DNA from: Arthrobacter sp. Leaf234
GTDB taxonomy: Bacteria > Actinomycetota > Actinomycetes > Actinomycetales > Micrococcaceae
Assembly: GCF_001422665.1 (NCBI RefSeq)
Contig: NZ_LMLU01000001.1
Coordinates: 850,797 to 914,796 of the forward strand
Length of the DNA: 64,000 bases
Direction: 5' to 3'
The notes below the pieces were generated by a model that was not told the DNA's origin, made no database searches, and saw nothing but the letters and a program-made list of their open reading frames with translations. The number at the start of each line of letters is the position of its first letter. Position 1 is the stretch's first letter. The translations under genes and the position numbers were made by a program. Positions 6,107 to 58,606 of the stretch are shown here, piece by piece.

Positions 6107-7198
6107 GTGAGCAGCAACAGCAGGGTGAGCAGCGCGTCGCGCAGTGACGCGGCCGAGAAGGCGCGGACCGCGCCGGATCCCAACGATCCCCGCAAGCCGG
6201 ACGATCCGAAGGACGTCAGGAAGCCGGCGTGGAAGTACGTGTTCAAGCGGTCCCTGAACGAGTTCGGCAAGGACCAGTGCACCGATCTGGCAGCGGCGCT
6301 CACCTACTACGCCGTCCTCGCCATCTTCCCCGGCATCCTGGCGCTCCTGTCCCTCCTCGGTCTGTTCGGGCAGGCCCAGAGCACCACGAACCAGGTGCTG
6401 GAGATCGTCGGTCAGTTCGCGCCCCGCGATACGCTCGAGACGATCCGGCCGACGATCGAGGGCCTCGCCTCCAACCAGGCCGCCGGTCTCACGTTCGTCA
6501 TCGGACTCGCGGGTGCCATCTGGTCGGCATCGGGCTACGTCAATGCCTTCTCCCGCGCCATGAACCGGGTCTACGAGGTCGAGGAAGGTCGCGGGTTCCT
6601 CAAACTGCGCCCGCAGATGCTCCTCGTGACGATCGTCGTCCTCGTCCTGATCGTGATCATGGGCCTCATGCTCGTCCTGTCCGGTCCCGTGGCGGAGGCC
6701 GTCGGCAACACGATCGGTCTCGGCAGTACCGCCGTGACCATCTGGAATATCGCCAAATGGCCCGTCATGGTGCTCTTCGCGGTGCTCATGATCGCGGTGC
6801 TGTACTACGGGTCCCCGAACATCAAGCAGCCCAAGTTCCGCTGGATGAGCCTCGGCGGCCTGATCGCCCTGCTGGTGCTCGCCATCACCACCGCGGCGTT
6901 CTCCCTCTACGTGGCGAACTTCGGCAGCTATGACAAGACCTACGGCGCCATCGCCGGGGTCATCGTGCTGCTGCTGTGGATCTGGCTGGCCAACCTGTCC
7001 CTGCTGTTCGGTGTCGAGTTCGATGCCGAGATGGAGCGCGGACGCCAGTTGCAGGGCGGTATCGAGGCCGAGGAGACCATCCAGCTTCCCCCGCGGGATT
7101 CCAAGGCTGCGGAGAAGAAGCAGGAGAAGCACCTCAAGCTCGTCCGTGAGGGACGCGAACTGCGTGAGAAGTACGGACGGGATCACAGCAGGCAGTAG
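6107..7198 (+). CDS. YihY/BrkB-family inner membrane protein
   Basis: This 363-residue integral membrane protein has a charged, proline-rich N-terminal tail (about residues 1-45), then the conserved family start FKRSLNEFGKDQCTDLAAALTYYAVLAIFP. Roughly six membrane segments follow, including the stretch LLWIWLANLSLLFGVEFDAEMER that is diagnostic for YihY/BrkB. The C-terminus is a charged cytoplasmic tail rich in Lys/Glu. The family was once called ribonuclease BN, which is not supported; its function is unsettled. The GTG at 6107 is preferred because GGAG lies six bases upstream. Earlier in-frame starts would add a tail without ribosome binding site support. Confidence 0.88.
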   Translation: MSSNSRVSSASRSDAAEKARTAPDPNDPRKPDDPKDVRKPAWKYVFKRSLNEFGKDQCTDLAAALTYYAVLAIFPGILALLSLLGLFGQAQSTTNQVLEIVGQFAPRDTLETIRPTIEGLASNQAAGLTFVIGLAGAIWSASGYVNAFSRAMNRVYEVEEGRGFLKLRPQMLLVTIVVLVLIVIMGLMLVLSGPVAEAVGNTIGLGSTAVTIWNIAKWPVMVLFAVLMIAVLYYGSPNIKQPKFRWMSLGGLIALLVLAITTAAFSLYVANFGSYDKTYGAIAGVIVLLLWIWLANLSLLFGVEFDAEMERGRQLQGGIEAEETIQLPPRDSKAAEKKQEKHLKLVREGRELREKYGRDHSRQ

Positions 7199-51561: not shown

Positions 51562-51730
51562 GGTTTCTCCTTCTCGTCCGGTGGTCCTGTACCTACCCTA
51601 GCCGCGCGACGAGGCGCTCGGCAGGGACGGGTCCGCCCTGGCCGCGGGACGGCCGCCGTGGTTCGTCCAGGCCGGTCGACCTGCCCGGGTGCACGCCCCT
51701 GCGGTGTAGGATCGGAACGCTCAACCATCA

Positions 51731-51840
51731 CACGACAGGGGAGCGCAGACCCGCAGCACGCTGCCGGGTCGGGCGCTGAGAGTGCGGACCGCCGCAGACC
51801 CTCGAACCTGATCCGGCTAGTACCGGCGAAGGGAGTCGAG
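51731..51840 (+). promoter_or_regulatory. TPP riboswitch (THI element)
   Basis: The conserved blocks are all present: GGGGAGC, GCTGAGAGTGCGG (51775-51787), CAGACCCTCGAACCTGAT, CCGGCTAGTACCGG and GAAGGGAG. Stem P1 pairs CGAC (51733-51736) with GTCG (51835-51838). It lies about 70 bases before the ykoE gene, so binding of thiamine pyrophosphate should lower expression of the transporter. The strength of the match makes this one of the safest RNA calls in the window. Confidence 0.95.
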
Positions 51841-51911
51841 TTCTCGGAGTGCACGGACACCGCCCCGGCGATACCGGCACTCCCCCCTCCTGTACCTCAG
51901 GAGGATCCACC

Positions 51912-52520: not shown

Positions 52521-54010
52521 CACCACTCGGCGGGCCCCTCCCGCGCGCCGTGCAGGTCAGCGCGCGGGGGTGGGGCTGGCGTCATGCCGGGCGCAGGGCG
52601 TTCGCCGCCCGGCACCTCGACCTCGAGCTGACGCCCGGAGAGCGGGTGCTGCTGCTCGGTGCCTCCGGCGCGGGGAAGTCCACGGTGCTCCACGCGCTGG
52701 CCGGCGTGCTCGGCAGCAATGACGAGGGTGAGCAGGAGGGGGACCTCCTGCTCGACGGCGTCCCGCCCGCCGCGGCGCGGGGACGCGCGGGTCTGGTGCT
52801 GCAGGACCCGGAGTCCCAGGTGGTCCTCGCCCGCGTCGGCGACGAGGTGGCCTTCGCGGCCGAGAACCTCGCCATGCCGCGGGACGAGATCTGGCGACGC
52901 GTGCACCGGGCGCTCGACGACGTCGGCCTCGACCTCCCGCTCGACCACCCCACCACCGCTCTGTCCGGCGGGCAGAAGCAGCGCCTCGCACTCGCCTCCG
53001 TCCTCGCGATGGAGCCCGGACTGCTGCTGCTCGACGAACCCACGGCCAACCTCGACCCGGACGGCGTCCTCGAGGTCCGGGACGCCGTGATCCGGGTCCT
53101 CGATCGCACCCGGGCCACGCTCGTCGTCGTCGAGCACAGGGTCGCGGTGTGGGCCGATGTCGTCGACCGCCTGATCGTGCTGGATGCCGACGGCGGTGTC
53201 CTCGCCGACGGCGCACCCGGACAGGTCCTCGTGCAGGAGGCGACCCGCAGCCGTCTCGAACAGGCGGGTGTGTGGGTGCCCGGTCGACGGCCCGCCGTCG
53301 GCGGCGCCGTGCCGACGTCCGCCGGAGGGGAGGTGCTCCTCGCAGCCACCGGGCTCGACGTCGCGCGCACGAAGCGCGGTCCGGTCGCCGTCGCCGGGCT
53401 CGACCTCACCGTCCGTGCCGGCCAGGCCCTCGGCATCACGGGCCCCAACGGTGCCGGGAAGTCGACGGCGGCCCTGACCCTCGGCGGTCTGCTGCGCCCC
53501 CGGGCCGGCTCGGTCCGGGCCGTCCCGGCCCTCACGGGCACGGCCGGTGACGACCCCTTCCGGTGGCGGTCCACCGAGCTCGTCCAGCGCATCGGGACGG
53601 TGTTCCAGGAACCCGAGCACCAGTTCCTCACCGCGAGCGTGGGGGAGGAGCTCGCCGTCGGCCCGGCCAGGGTGGGCGGCGCGCAGGCTCCTGGACGCAT
53701 CGCTGAACTCGCCGAGCGCCTCCGCCTCACGCACCTCCTGCAGGCCAACCCCTTCACGCTCTCCGGTGGCGAGAAGCGCCGCCTGTCCGTGGCGACGATG
53801 CTCGCCACCGCGCCGCGGATCCTGATCCTCGACGAGCCGACCTTCGGACAGGACGCCCTGACCTGGGCCGAGCTCGTCACCCTGCTCCGCGAACTGGTCG
53901 ACGACGGTGTGGCCGTGCTCTCCGTCACCCACGACGCCGAGTTCATCGACGCACTGGGCGGAGCGACCCTGCACGTCTCCGGCGGTGCGGGGACCCTGGT
54001 GCACCGATGA
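52517..54010 (+). CDS. ykoD: ECF transporter duplicated ATPase (YkoD)
   Basis: This 497-residue protein holds two ABC ATPase domains in tandem. Domain 1 has Walker A GASGAGKST, LSGGQKQR and LLLLDEPTANLD. Domain 2 has Walker A GPNGAGKST, LSGGEKRR and ILILDEPTFGQD. Both are complete, so it would work as a single-chain ATPase pair. The domains are joined by an Ala/Gly-rich linker near residues 255-275. The GTG at 52517 overlaps the ykoE stop (GTGA). It energises the S component together with YkoC. Confidence 0.93.
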   Translation: MTPLGGPLPRAVQVSARGWGWRHAGRRAFAARHLDLELTPGERVLLLGASGAGKSTVLHALAGVLGSNDEGEQEGDLLLDGVPPAAARGRAGLVLQDPESQVVLARVGDEVAFAAENLAMPRDEIWRRVHRALDDVGLDLPLDHPTTALSGGQKQRLALASVLAMEPGLLLLDEPTANLDPDGVLEVRDAVIRVLDRTRATLVVVEHRVAVWADVVDRLIVLDADGGVLADGAPGQVLVQEATRSRLEQAGVWVPGRRPAVGGAVPTSAGGEVLLAATGLDVARTKRGPVAVAGLDLTVRAGQALGITGPNGAGKSTAALTLGGLLRPRAGSVRAVPALTGTAGDDPFRWRSTELVQRIGTVFQEPEHQFLTASVGEELAVGPARVGGAQAPGRIAELAERLRLTHLLQANPFTLSGGEKRRLSVATMLATAPRILILDEPTFGQDALTWAELVTLLRELVDDGVAVLSVTHDAEFIDALGGATLHVSGGAGTLVHR

Positions 54011-54804
54011 GCACCGACTACCTGACACCGGTCCTGACCGGGAAGACGCTCCTGCGGGCCAACCCGGTGTCCAAGCTGTTCGCTGCCACCGTCATCACGC
54101 TCGCCCTGATGGCGAGCATCGACTGGGTCAGCGCGGCTGTGGTCCTCACCTGCGAACTGGTGCTCATGCCCCTGCTCGGCATCAGCGTCCTGGCACTGGC
54201 ACGCCGGATCTGGCCGCTGCTGGTCGCCGCCCTGATCGGCGCCTACGGCACGGCACTGCTGGCCGACAAGACCGGTGGGGTGGTGCTCGACGTGGGGCCG
54301 TTCCTGTTCACCGAGGACTCCGTCGCGTCGGGGATCGCCGTCGGACTCCGCGGGCTCGCGCTCGCGCTGCCGGGGATCTTCGTCCTGCTCACCACCGACC
54401 CCACCGACCTCGCCGACGCCCTCGCGCAGAAGCTGCACCTGCCGCACCGCTTCGTGCTCGGCGGGCTCGCGTCGCTGCGGCTCGCGGGTCTGCTGGTGGA
54501 GCAGTGGGAGACGCTCGGGCTGGCCCGCCACGCGCGCGGTGTGGGATCGGGCGGGTCCGTCGGCGCGCGCACCCGCAACCTCCTCGGGCAGTCCTTCGGG
54601 CTGATCGTGCAGGCGATCCGGCGCGCCACCCGCCTCGCGACGGCCATGGAGGCCCGCGGCTTCGGTGGCGGGACACGCACCTGGGCCCGGGAGAGCTCGT
54701 TCTCGGCGCTCGACGCCGTCGTCGCGGCCGTCGGGCTCCTCATCGCGGCCGGTGCGGTCACCGCGGCCGTCCTCGCGGGGACCTGGAACTTCATCCTGTC
54801 CTGA
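54007..54804 (+). CDS. ykoC: ECF transporter T component (YkoC)
   Basis: This 265-residue membrane protein couples the ATPase to the S component. It has five or so helices and the T-component Arg motifs, seen here as LGLARHARGVG and TAMEARGFGGG (ARG motifs that contact the ATPase). It overlaps ykoD by four bases. With ykoE and ykoD it completes a thiamine-type ECF transporter under TPP riboswitch control. A strong bidirectional terminator follows at 54849-54880. Confidence 0.93.
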   Translation: MSTDYLTPVLTGKTLLRANPVSKLFAATVITLALMASIDWVSAAVVLTCELVLMPLLGISVLALARRIWPLLVAALIGAYGTALLADKTGGVVLDVGPFLFTEDSVASGIAVGLRGLALALPGIFVLLTTDPTDLADALAQKLHLPHRFVLGGLASLRLAGLLVEQWETLGLARHARGVGSGGSVGARTRNLLGQSFGLIVQAIRRATRLATAMEARGFGGGTRTWARESSFSALDAVVAAVGLLIAAGAVTAAVLAGTWNFILS

Positions 54805-54907: not shown

Positions 54908-55641
<734 letters not shown>

Positions 55642-55645
<4 letters not shown>

Positions 55646-56403
55646 GCCCGTGCTCCTTCGCTCATGGTGGTGAGGTCCTCCAGCTCGGGCTTCTGCTTCC
55701 GCCCGACGCGCAGCCGGTGGTCGATGAAGTTCACCAGGTGCGTGAGCGGGATGGTCAGGCACAGGTACAGGACTCCGGCCGCGATGAGCGGCGACAGGTT
55801 GCCCGTGTTGCTCGCGGCATCGTTGCCCACCCGGAAGAGCTCCCGTTCACTGGCGACGAGGCCGATGAAGTAGATGAGCGAGGACTCCTTGATGAGCGCG
55901 ATGAACTGGTTCACCAGGGCGGGCAGCACGCGTCTGACGCCCTGGGGGATGACCACGAGCCGCATGGACGAGCCGTAGCTGAAGCCCAGCGCCCGGGTGG
56001 CCTCGAGCTGGCCCTTCTCCACGCTCTGGATGCCCGAGCGGAAGATCTCGCCGATGTACGCCGACGCGATCAGCGAGAGCGCGAGGATGCCCAGCGGATA
56101 GGGGCTCGTGCTGCCCGTGAGCTGCCGGAGGATCGGACCGAGTCCCAGGCCGATGAGCAGGATGATCACGACGGCGGGGAGGCCGCGGAAGATGTCCGTG
56201 TAGATGCGGGCGATCCACCGGAGCACGCGGTTGCGGGAGATCCCCATGATGGCGAGGAGCATGCCGACGATCGTGCCGATGACGCCCGAGGCCAGCGCGA
56301 GCAGGAGGGTGTTGGGCAGTCCGACGGTCAGGAGGTCCGGCAGGACGGCAGCCATCGCCTCCCAGTCGAAGAACGTCTTACCGAGTTGTTCGAAGGCATC
56401 CAT
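55642..56403 (-). CDS. Polar amino-acid ABC transporter permease
   Basis: This 253-residue membrane protein has five or so helices and the HisM/GlnP signature [24 protein letters not shown] plus [16 protein letters not shown]. The EAA-type loop is [48 protein letters not shown]. One permease gene is present, so the channel is probably a homodimer. It lies between the substrate-binding and ATPase genes. The last 20 residues are a charged tail. Confidence 0.92.
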
Positions 56404-56413
56404 GCAGGACCGG

Positions 56414-57328
56414 CTACTTCACGACCGCGGCTTTGCTGCCGGGCTTCCAGTCGGAGGGGAGCTCGCGGTCCGGGTACCACTCCTGGGTGAGCTCGGTCCA
56501 CGTGCCGTCGGCGATCACGGCGTCGAGGCCCGCGTTGAGCGCGTCGATCAGCGCCTTGTTGTCGCTGTTGACGGCGTACGCGGTGAAGTTCTCCGTGTTG
56601 ATGATGGTCTCGGCGATCGTCGTGCCGTCACCCTCCTTCACCTGGCCGGTGGCCTGCTGGGAGGGGGCGACCCAGGCGTCGACCTGACCGTTCTTCACGT
56701 TCGCGTAGACGGTGTTGTAGTCGGGGAAGCGGACCGGCTCGAGACCCAGGGTGTTGGAGACGTAGTCGTCCTGCACCGTACCCTGGACCACGCCGATGCG
56801 GGTGCTCTCCGAGAGGGAGTCGAAGCCCGTGACGGAGGAGCCGTCCTTCGTGACGACGGCCATGTAGCCGAAGTCGTAGCCGTTGGTGAAGCCGACGTTC
56901 TCGCGGCGGGCCGCCGTCGTCGAGATCGAGGAGGATCCGACGTCGAACTGCTTGTTCTGGACCTGCGCGAGGAGGGCGGAGAAGTCGGTGGACGCGAATT
57001 CGACCTCGAGGTCGAGCTTCTCGCCGATGGCACGCAACAGTTCGTTGTCGTAGCCGGTGAACACACCGTCCTCGAGGAAGATGTTCGGCGGTGCGTCCGA
57101 GAGCGTACCGACGCGCAGGGTGCCGTCGGTGATGAGGCCGAGCCCGGACGTGTCGATCTCGTCGATCGGCGTGGTGTCCTCGGTGGTGTACTGGTCGAGC
57201 GACTGCTGGTCGCTGCCGGCCAGCGCGTCGGTGCTCTCGGTGGGCTCGCTCGAGGAGCTGCCGCAGGAGACGGTGAGAGCGAGCAGGGGGACGGTGAGGG
57301 CCGCGAGGAGCTTGCGGGAGATTGTCAT
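56414..57328 (-). CDS. Polar amino-acid ABC transporter substrate-binding lipoprotein
   Basis: This 304-residue protein of the cluster-3 (GlnH/HisJ) family has a lipoprotein signal (MTISRKLLAALTVPLLALTVSCGSSSSEP). The mature part reads LRVGTLSDAPPNIFLEDGVFTGYDNELLRAIGEKLDLEVEFASTDFSALLAQVQNKQFDVGSSSIS, typical for amino-acid binding. It heads the three-gene operon and is preceded by a long leader with a SAM-IV-like riboswitch. The likely ligand is therefore methionine or a related sulfur compound rather than a generic polar amino acid (inference). ATG 57328 follows an AAGGA ribosome binding site and makes the signal peptide start correctly. Confidence 0.9.
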   Translation of the reverse strand: MTISRKLLAALTVPLLALTVSCGSSSSEPTESTDALAGSDQQSLDQYTTEDTTPIDEIDTSGLGLITDGTLRVGTLSDAPPNIFLEDGVFTGYDNELLRAIGEKLDLEVEFASTDFSALLAQVQNKQFDVGSSSISTTAARRENVGFTNGYDFGYMAVVTKDGSSVTGFDSLSESTRIGVVQGTVQDDYVSNTLGLEPVRFPDYNTVYANVKNGQVDAWVAPSQQATGQVKEGDGTTIAETIINTENFTAYAVNSDNKALIDALNAGLDAVIADGTWTELTQEWYPDRELPSDWKPGSKAAVVK

Positions 57329-57348
57329 GGGGGTCCTTCGTCGAAGAT

Positions 57349-57366
57349 GCGCCCGCTGGCGGGCGC
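57349..57366 (-). promoter_or_regulatory. Hairpin close to the ribosome binding site in the SAM-responsive leader
   Basis: GCGCCCGC (57349-57356) pairs with GCGGGCGC (57359-57366). It lies ten bases upstream of the AAGGA ribosome binding site (57334-57339) of the binding-protein gene and could be part of the expression platform. It does not directly cover the site. Confidence 0.4.
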
Positions 57367-57504
57367 GGAGGATGGAGTGTCGGGGACGCCGCGGGGCGGC
57401 AGGAGGAAGGGCTGCTTGCTGCTGGGTGACACGCTCGCTGTTCTGGGCTGTGCGCGCAGATGCGGAACGGGGGACCCGGGAATTTCCGGTGCTGGACCGC
57501 ACGA

Positions 57505-57622
57505 CGCCGTACTTGCCATCCGGGGGACTTATCCCGGCGGCCGAATCTTCACCTGGAGCACCCCACTACGGGAGAGGGTTGCTGTCCAGCCGGCCAGGGC
57601 CGTGGGCTGGAACTCTTGATTT
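57505..57622 (-). promoter_or_regulatory. SAM-IV-like riboswitch
   Basis: Read on the minus strand, the leader contains AATCAAGAGTTCCAGCC, then CGGCTGGACAGCAACCCTC, then GTAGTGGGGTGCTCC, then AGGTGAAGATT. These match the order and key bases of the SAM-IV class (GGUCAxGAGxxCCAGC, GCUGGCCGGCAACCCUCC, GGUGGGGUGCCCCGGGUGAxGACC). P1 is AATC paired with GATT. A downstream GCCGGGATAAGTCCC block may give the pseudoknot. SAM-IV riboswitches respond to S-adenosylmethionine, so this leader should switch the amino-acid ABC operon. The remaining 57329-57504 part of the leader has one hairpin near the ribosome binding site. Confidence 0.82.
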
Positions 57623-57678
57623 CAGGAAAACGCTAGGCCAGCAGGGAGGGCCGGGTCAAAACGCCGGCCGGTGAAAAG

Positions 57679-57721
57679 CCACGATCGACGTCGCATTCGG
57701 CCCTTTCGGGCCCGATTGTGG
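57679..57721 (-). terminator. Intrinsic terminator after pabC
   Basis: On the minus strand a composite hairpin (CCACAATCG with CGATCGTGG, one G-U pair, plus inner GGCCC/GGGCC) is followed directly by CTTTTC. It starts seven bases past the pabC stop and isolates the riboswitch-controlled operon. Confidence 0.75.
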
Positions 57722-57727
57722 CGAGGA

Positions 57728-58606
57728 TTACACGAATCGGTCGACGAGCTCGGCCAATTCGGCCGTCAGGGCCGTCGACGTCCGGAGGTCCTGGCCGTCG
57801 AGGGAGAGGACGGGCGCGAGGAGCCGGATGCTCGAGATGAGCCACACGGCGTCGGCCTCGAGCAGGTGGTGCGGCTCGAGCGGTCCGTAGCCCAGCTCCC
57901 AGCCCTGCTCCTTCGCCGCGGCGAAGAGCGCGCTCTGTGACGTGCCGGCCAGGATGCCGCTCTCGAGCTGCGGGGTGAGCAGGGTCTTCCGCCCGTCGCG
58001 GTCGTAGGCGAGCAGCACCGTGGACGTGGGGCCCTCGAGGACCTTGCCGTCGGAGGACGTGAAGATGACGTCGTCGGCACCGTGCGCCCTGGCATAGCGC
58101 ACGGCCGCCATGTTGACGGCATAGGAGAGCGTCTTGGCCCCCATGAGCAGCCAGGGCGCGCGCTGGGCGACGGTGCTGTCGTACCCGCGCTCGAGGAACA
58201 GCACCCGGAGCCCTGTCGCCCGCTGCGCCAGTGTCGACGCCGGGACGGGGGACACCTGCACCCAGGCGGTCGCGCTGCCCGCACCCTCGACGCCGCGCGT
58301 CGCGATCAGCTTCACGACGGCGTGCGTGCGGTCGGGCTCGGCCGCCGCGAACTCGCGGAGACCCGTGCGGATCGCGCGGCTCCAGGCGCCGGCCCCGGGC
58401 ACGGTCAGGTCCAGTGCGGCGGCCGACGCCGCCAACCGATCGAGATGGGCCTGTTCCTTGCGCGGTGTCCCGCCGACGGCCAGCATCGACTCGAAGATGC
58501 CGTCCCCCCGGGTGGCGCCGAGATCGGTGGCCATGAGCTGGGGACGGGAGGCGTCGGCCACGGTGCCGTCGTCGTGGGCCGGGTCGAGGAACACCAGAAC
58601 AGTCAT
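57728..58606 (-). CDS. pabC: Aminodeoxychorismate lyase (class IV aminotransferase fold)
   Basis: This 292-residue PLP enzyme should release 4-aminobenzoate and pyruvate from 4-amino-4-deoxychorismate for folate synthesis. The PLP-binding Lys lies in LLMGAKTLSYAVNM. Family features are TRGDGIFESMLAVGG near the start, VIFTSSDGKVLEGPTSTVLL, and TPQLESGILAGTSQSALF. A branched-chain aminotransferase-like or D-amino-acid transaminase function is possible since the fold is shared, but the nearby pabB fusion (61391-63472) supports the folate role. ATG 58606 is chosen; a -10-like TACGCT lies eight bases upstream. Confidence 0.87.
   Translation of the reverse strand: MTVLVFLDPAHDDGTVADASRPQLMATDLGATRGDGIFESMLAVGGTPRKEQAHLDRLAASAAALDLTVPGAGAWSRAIRTGLREFAAAEPDRTHAVVKLIATRGVEGAGSATAWVQVSPVPASTLAQRATGLRVLFLERGYDSTVAQRAPWLLMGAKTLSYAVNMAAVRYARAHGADDVIFTSSDGKVLEGPTSTVLLAYDRDGRKTLLTPQLESGILAGTSQSALFAAAKEQGWELGYGPLEPHHLLEADAVWLISSIRLLAPVLSLDGQDLRTSTALTAELAELVDRFV

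Follow-up and report, generated by a model that had tools for sequence, protein, structure and literature searches.

The window analysed in this study is a stretch of 64,000 nucleotides from the genome of Arthrobacter sp. Leaf234. On its minus strand, next to pabC, lies the three-gene operon that a preliminary description had placed behind a riboswitch-bearing leader, and domain searches recovered its genes as SBP_bac_3, BPD_transp_1 and ABC_tran members (Table 1). The gene set of a PAAT-family importer, namely an SBP_bac_3 protein, a HEQRo-type permease and an ABC ATPase, is thus present in one operon. SBP_bac_3 is the only Pfam match of the binding protein at E 0.001, and PF03180, the family of the MetNIQ binding protein MetQ, does not match it. 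None of the NCBIfam cystine models reaches its cut-off for this operon.

Table 1. Features of the operon, its leader and the adjacent pabC gene (positions in the window)
Feature	Position	Strand	Evidence
pabC (aminodeoxychorismate lyase), upstream neighbour	57728..58606	-	NCBIfam NF005887, 289.2 bits (cut-off 278)
Hairpin after pabC, weak terminator candidate	57670..57728	-	-22.1 kcal/mol, z -2.0, 11/200 shuffles as good
Probable promoter, TTGACC, 18 nt, TAGCGT	57630..57659	-	Inferred from sequence
SAM-IV riboswitch aptamer	57504..57621	-	RF00634, 87.9 bits, complete
Conserved 22-nt leader element	57425..57446	-	Little changed across the group's leaders
Shine-Dalgarno-like AAGGA before the binding-protein gene	57334..57338	-	Read from the sequence; inside a conserved GAAGGAC block
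Lipoprotein signal peptide to Cys22, MetQ-like in the group	57263..57328	-	59% amino acid identity to SAM-IV-linked MetQ of the group
Substrate-binding protein (SBP_bac_3), with Pro222 where an Asp is usual	56414..57328	-	Pfam, 104.8 bits
Permease, PAAT type	55642..56403	-	BPD_transp_1, 85.4 bits; TIGR01726, 73.2 bits (cut-off 42.2)
ATPase, GlnQ-like	54908..55645	-	ABC_tran, 131.9 bits; best NCBIfam match GlnQ, below its cut-off

Elsewhere in the window, a TPP riboswitch was detected on the plus strand at 51727-51851 (62.0 bits, cut-off 54.3). The genes after it look like an ECF-type vitamin transporter, whose T component (54007-54801) matches TIGR02454 below its cut-off.

The SAM-IV aptamer and its leader

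The SAM-IV covariance model (RF00634) matched the minus strand at 57621-57504 over its full length (model positions 1-116 of 116) with 87.9 bits and E 2.1e-14, against an Rfam gathering score of 38. Both the SAM-IV assignment and the matching P1 helix of the preliminary description were therefore confirmed, P1 (AAUC/GAUU) of the window's aptamer being fully paired. Among 24 SAM-IV copies, 91.0% of cells were paired in the structure including both pseudoknots, compared to 35-42% in slid-partner controls, and two-sided changes were seen in 22 of 38 pairs. Four of five pairing measures exceeded all 500 shuffles of these copies; the fifth, the number of further pair types, did not. PK-1 was paired in 100% of cells, PK-2 in 95.8% and P5 in only 65.9%, and the metX rows align poorly in P2a. 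The tested structure was drawn from the window's aptamer, the Rfam structure line and the published fold (PMC6890682), so that the test leans towards the window. P1, P2a/b, P3, P5, PK-1 and PK-2 can all form, in agreement with that fold. The riboswitch is an ordinary SAM-IV, and what sets it apart is that it precedes a PAAT operon.

The rest of the leader is less clear-cut. The good intrinsic terminator that had been described as isolating the operon from pabC did not stand: a terminator scan that included the window's leader reported no terminator-like site (0.4 expected by chance), the hairpin beside the pabC stop codon folds only slightly better than shuffles, and its sequence is not kept in 20 aligned leaders. 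By eye, some relatives in this alignment seem to have a different hairpin after pabC. A terminator between pabC and the operon is thus weak at best. The blocks of the probable promoter, TTTTGACC and TAGCG, recur in the 20-leader alignment, with few rows diverging, and a consensus promoter scan reported no promoter in the leader. The conserved 22-nt element (57446-57425) is the sole match of its sequence in the genome at up to three mismatches. An upstream reading frame through this element was discarded because the element lies in differing frames between genomes (by eye).

Two modes of regulation were also examined and rejected. Sequestration of the start codon by GUCGUGCGG, a conserved sequence 3' of the aptamer, was not supported, with a median control share of 0.27 over 20 leaders and ≤5% of control windows pairing equally well in only 6 of them. 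Intrinsic attenuation was discarded because none of the 20 leaders has a T run longer than 4 beyond the aptamer and no terminator was found in the window's leader. No expression platform was identified in the leader; it is C-rich, and Rho-dependent control is possible.

Distribution of the operon, its riboswitch and MetQ

Among the named sources of proteins closely related to the binding protein are Arthrobacter agilis, A. echini, A. ruber and A. cheniae. In the window's genus (38 genomes; 71 candidates scored in the SAM-IV survey), SAM-IV was found in all 38 genomes and the binding protein in 21. The 21st genome (G002) was excluded from the counts; its binding-protein gene is partial, interrupted by a 100-N gap in the assembly, and other sequence precedes it (L135), possibly a misjoin. 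All 20 full-length orthologues in the window's Arthrobacter group have SAM-IV directly upstream and the adjacent pabC beyond it, which, together with the covariance-model match, supports the proposed SAM-IV control of the operon. The record L249, whose title is Vibrio cholerae strain 35D, also encodes a 90% identical Arthrobacter-type binding protein; it is probably a mislabelled assembly.

Beyond the genus, the analysis covered 71 orthologues from elsewhere in the family, which are 61-77% identical. No riboswitch above the Rfam cut-off was found for any of them in upstream scans of about 1.5 kb (0.5 kb in L097), and none has pabC as a neighbour within the stretch read. At the six of these loci that were read, the operon has an exonuclease-like or hemL-like gene nearby, and its neighbours by eye look unrelated to sulfur. 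We counted the missing riboswitch and the non-sulfur neighbours against the reading of the operon as a methionine importer.

The distribution of MetQ points the other way. Among 120 family genomes, 31 had PAAT only, 85 had MetQ only, four had both (G004, G006, G063 and G098) and none had neither, giving PAAT in 35 and MetQ in 89 genomes. Presence was called at E ≤ 1e-50 for both PAAT and MetQ (PF03180), the latter cut-off being fixed after the group search (E 0.001) and before the wider family search. MetNIQ was searched through its binding protein MetQ only, and the counts cover strong matches, so that a weaker MetQ-like protein such as that linked to a monooxygenase gene in the window's genome (147 bits) falls outside them. 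Of the 31 MetQ-negative genomes, 20 are named individually; the remaining 11, like the composition of the sample, were deduced from handles and totals. Fisher's test on the 120 genomes gave p of about 1e-24, a value that ignores kinship and overstates independence because the genomes are related. Genera g1, g7, g10 and g27 each contain genomes of both states, which makes more than one switch likely. In a larger set of 295 family genomes (Micrococcaceae by names), the binding protein was found in 85; at most seven candidates were scored per genome, and some PAAT negatives may therefore be misses.

Within the group, strong MetQ (>170 bits) was present in 4/20 PAAT genomes versus 16/17 others, and the sole non-PAAT genome without it has 68% completeness. 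At the looser cut-off of E 0.001, some PF03180 protein was found in 8/20 PAAT genomes versus 16/17 others. The split within the group may represent a single event. Identity of pabC to that of the window is 77-97% in PAAT genomes and about 65-71% in metZ genomes of the group.

Likeness of the 5' region to that of MetQ genes

Besides its complementary distribution, the operon resembles MetNIQ, in the group, in its riboswitch, promoter blocks and signal peptide, while differing in its SBP_bac_3 binding protein, PAAT permease and GlnQ-like ATPase. The 20 PAAT aptamers have a mean identity of 90.6% (86.7-95.0) to two aptamers of group MetQ genes, taken from eight SAM-IV-linked copies, and promoter blocks like those of PAAT occur in most of the eight MetQ leaders, all of which were used in the leader alignment. 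Identity of the PAAT aptamers is 84.9% to the single copy before a flavin-reductase-like gene, 71.6% to monooxygenase copies, 69.5% to SfnB-like copies and 56.3% to metZ aptamers. Four of the eight group genomes with SAM-IV-linked MetQ also have PAAT (G003, G004, G006 and G022).

The likeness extends into the coding region. Across the 20 codons up to and including the lipobox Cys, the group's PAAT signal peptides are 59.1% identical to those of the eight SAM-IV-linked MetQ proteins of the group, compared to 18.4% to those of PAAT in other genera (70 of 71 usable) and 16-27% to those of control lipoproteins (one to three each, a small set). One of these controls, the signal peptide of the single SAM-IV-linked MetQ from another genus, is only 26.5% identical. 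Whole binding proteins reverse this pattern, with 61-77% identity to PAAT elsewhere.

These comparisons fit, without proving, MetQ as the donor of the 5' module, the direction from MetQ to PAAT being our inference. The aptamer of the flavin-reductase-like gene, at about 85% identity, is an alternative donor candidate, and the low signal-peptide identity of the MetQ from another genus likewise counts against MetQ as the sole possible donor. Of the MetQ loci fetched from outside the group (28, of which 20 were scanned), one had SAM-IV, that of G068, a genome of another genus. With a second aligner, identity of this aptamer was 85.1% to the PAAT copies, 85.5% to those of MetQ and 86.4% to the flavin-reductase copy.

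Two SAM-IV copies lie back to back and divergent in L149 (G017; 6419-6538 and 6685-6818), one facing what by eye is a flavin-reductase-like gene, the other a DppA-like operon.

Candidate substrate and origin of the riboswitch

The preliminary description had predicted methionine or another sulfur amino acid as the substrate. This prediction is favored by the complementarity with MetQ and by the likeness of leader and signal peptide to those of MetQ, and one feature of the pocket stands against it. PAAT binding proteins usually, though not universally, carry an Asp at the position of Pro222, which we take to hold the alpha-amino group of the ligand. AncQR, AncCDT-1 and SocA have the Asp at the position aligned with Pro222, and all 91 orthologues examined have Pro in its place. 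The change would speak against a standard alpha-amino-acid pocket, and methionine itself is not certain for this reason. In the AlphaFold2 model of the binding protein (pLDDT 84.3), the closest fold is the deoxyfructosyl-amino-acid binding protein SocA (5l9o, 5lom and 6hqh; 36-37% identity), which keeps the Asp. As the closest solved relative, with sugar-amino-acid conjugates as ligands, SocA was also counted against methionine. Sulfur amino-acid importers of the PAAT superfamily are known, such as TcyABC and TcyJKLMN; the present operon shares with them the superfamily and the proposed kind of substrate, and differs in having Pro222 for Asp and in reaching the cut-off of no NCBIfam cystine model. 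Taken together, the transporter is a strong candidate for the role of a methionine importer that is not orthologous to MetNIQ, with methionine or a close derivative as its probable substrate.

The window's genome contains five SAM-IV copies, and the four others precede methionine-synthesis or sulfur-acquisition-like genes, which supports the methionine-importer reading. One lies before metY-metX, one before an NtaA/DmoA-family monooxygenase gene followed by MetN-like and MetQ-like genes, one about 0.7 kb upstream of an SfnB-like gene, and one before a peptide/nickel-type binding-protein operon with NtaA/DmoA and SfnB-like genes. The SfnB, MetQ and binding-protein matches at these loci are below curated cut-offs. 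The monooxygenase and SfnB-like genes could also mark a sulfur-scavenging regulon, in which the operon would import some other organosulfur compound, such as cystine, S-alkylcysteine, or a derivative or conjugate of methionine. The Pro at the usual Asp position and the binding of conjugated amino acids by SocA would suit such a substrate; however, the distribution complementary to MetQ and the match of leader and signal peptide to the group's MetQ do not, and we regard this explanation as rather unlikely.

At loci L139 (385-8970) and L137 (418-4859), SAM-IV precedes organosulfur-type operons with NtaA/DmoA-family genes, SfnB-like genes and transporters, which look like a SAM-controlled sulfur-scavenging regulon.

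It is also conceivable, albeit improbable, that the riboswitch came with the position beside pabC, in which case SAM control would say little about the substrate. In hand-picked group genomes, six that lack PAAT have the order pabC, SAM-IV, rhodanese-like gene and metZ; another (G030) has pabC, SAM-IV and rhodanese as far as the contig end, and in G018 the stretch read contains SAM-IV, rhodanese and metZ but no pabC. A close metZ (>800 bits) was found in 8 of the 38 genus genomes, none of them with PAAT. Of the pabC loci from other genera (26), three continue with rhodanese or metZ (G097, G061 and G065), and SAM-IV was present in two of the 20 scanned: G097 has the full order, and G061 has pabC, SAM-IV and rhodanese more widely spaced. 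The absence of the riboswitch from orthologues outside the group also agrees with this explanation. However, the PAAT aptamers are 56% identical to metZ aptamers against 91% to the two MetQ aptamers, so the PAAT aptamer is not simply the resident switch, and a retained metZ riboswitch was ruled out. Moreover, SAM-IV is kept in 20/20 genomes, and the MetQ complementarity holds where the riboswitch is absent as well. PAAT thus appears to occupy a slot in which relatives keep another SAM-IV operon, with an aptamer of its own that is of the MetQ type.

On balance, we consider it probable that the operon encodes a PAAT-family importer replacing MetNIQ, equipped in the Arthrobacter agilis/echini group with a promoter, riboswitch and signal-peptide module of the MetQ type. 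The importer would do the job of MetNIQ. When SAM is scarce, the SAM-IV aptamer would be empty and the operon on; when SAM is plentiful, the aptamer would be filled and expression lowered, an OFF direction suggested by the regulon. In the agilis/echini group the operon lies behind pabC with a 5' module (promoter, SAM-IV, leader and lipoprotein signal peptide) of the MetQ-gene kind, and both the relocation of the operon and the transfer of the module from MetQ to PAAT would have to be assumed. More tentatively, in roughly three of every ten sampled family genomes a PAAT with a non-canonical pocket might be the methionine importer, having displaced MetNIQ more than once, and one Arthrobacter group might then have acquired the MetQ promoter, SAM-IV and signal peptide as one 5' cassette. 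By such a takeover of the MetQ 5' region, control and export signal would both be inherited from the replaced gene.

Among the literature titles and abstract openings surveyed, none concerned SAM-IV before a PAAT operon or the replacement of MetNIQ by PAAT; the gene list of the original SAM-IV paper lies outside this coverage, so absence from print is unproved. A transporter named only "polar amino acid" in databases for many soil actinobacteria gains a concrete and testable candidate substrate, and the operon is a candidate for the replacement of MetNIQ by a non-orthologous system. It also suggests that a riboswitch, a promoter and a signal peptide can pass together, as a single cassette, from one importer gene to another.
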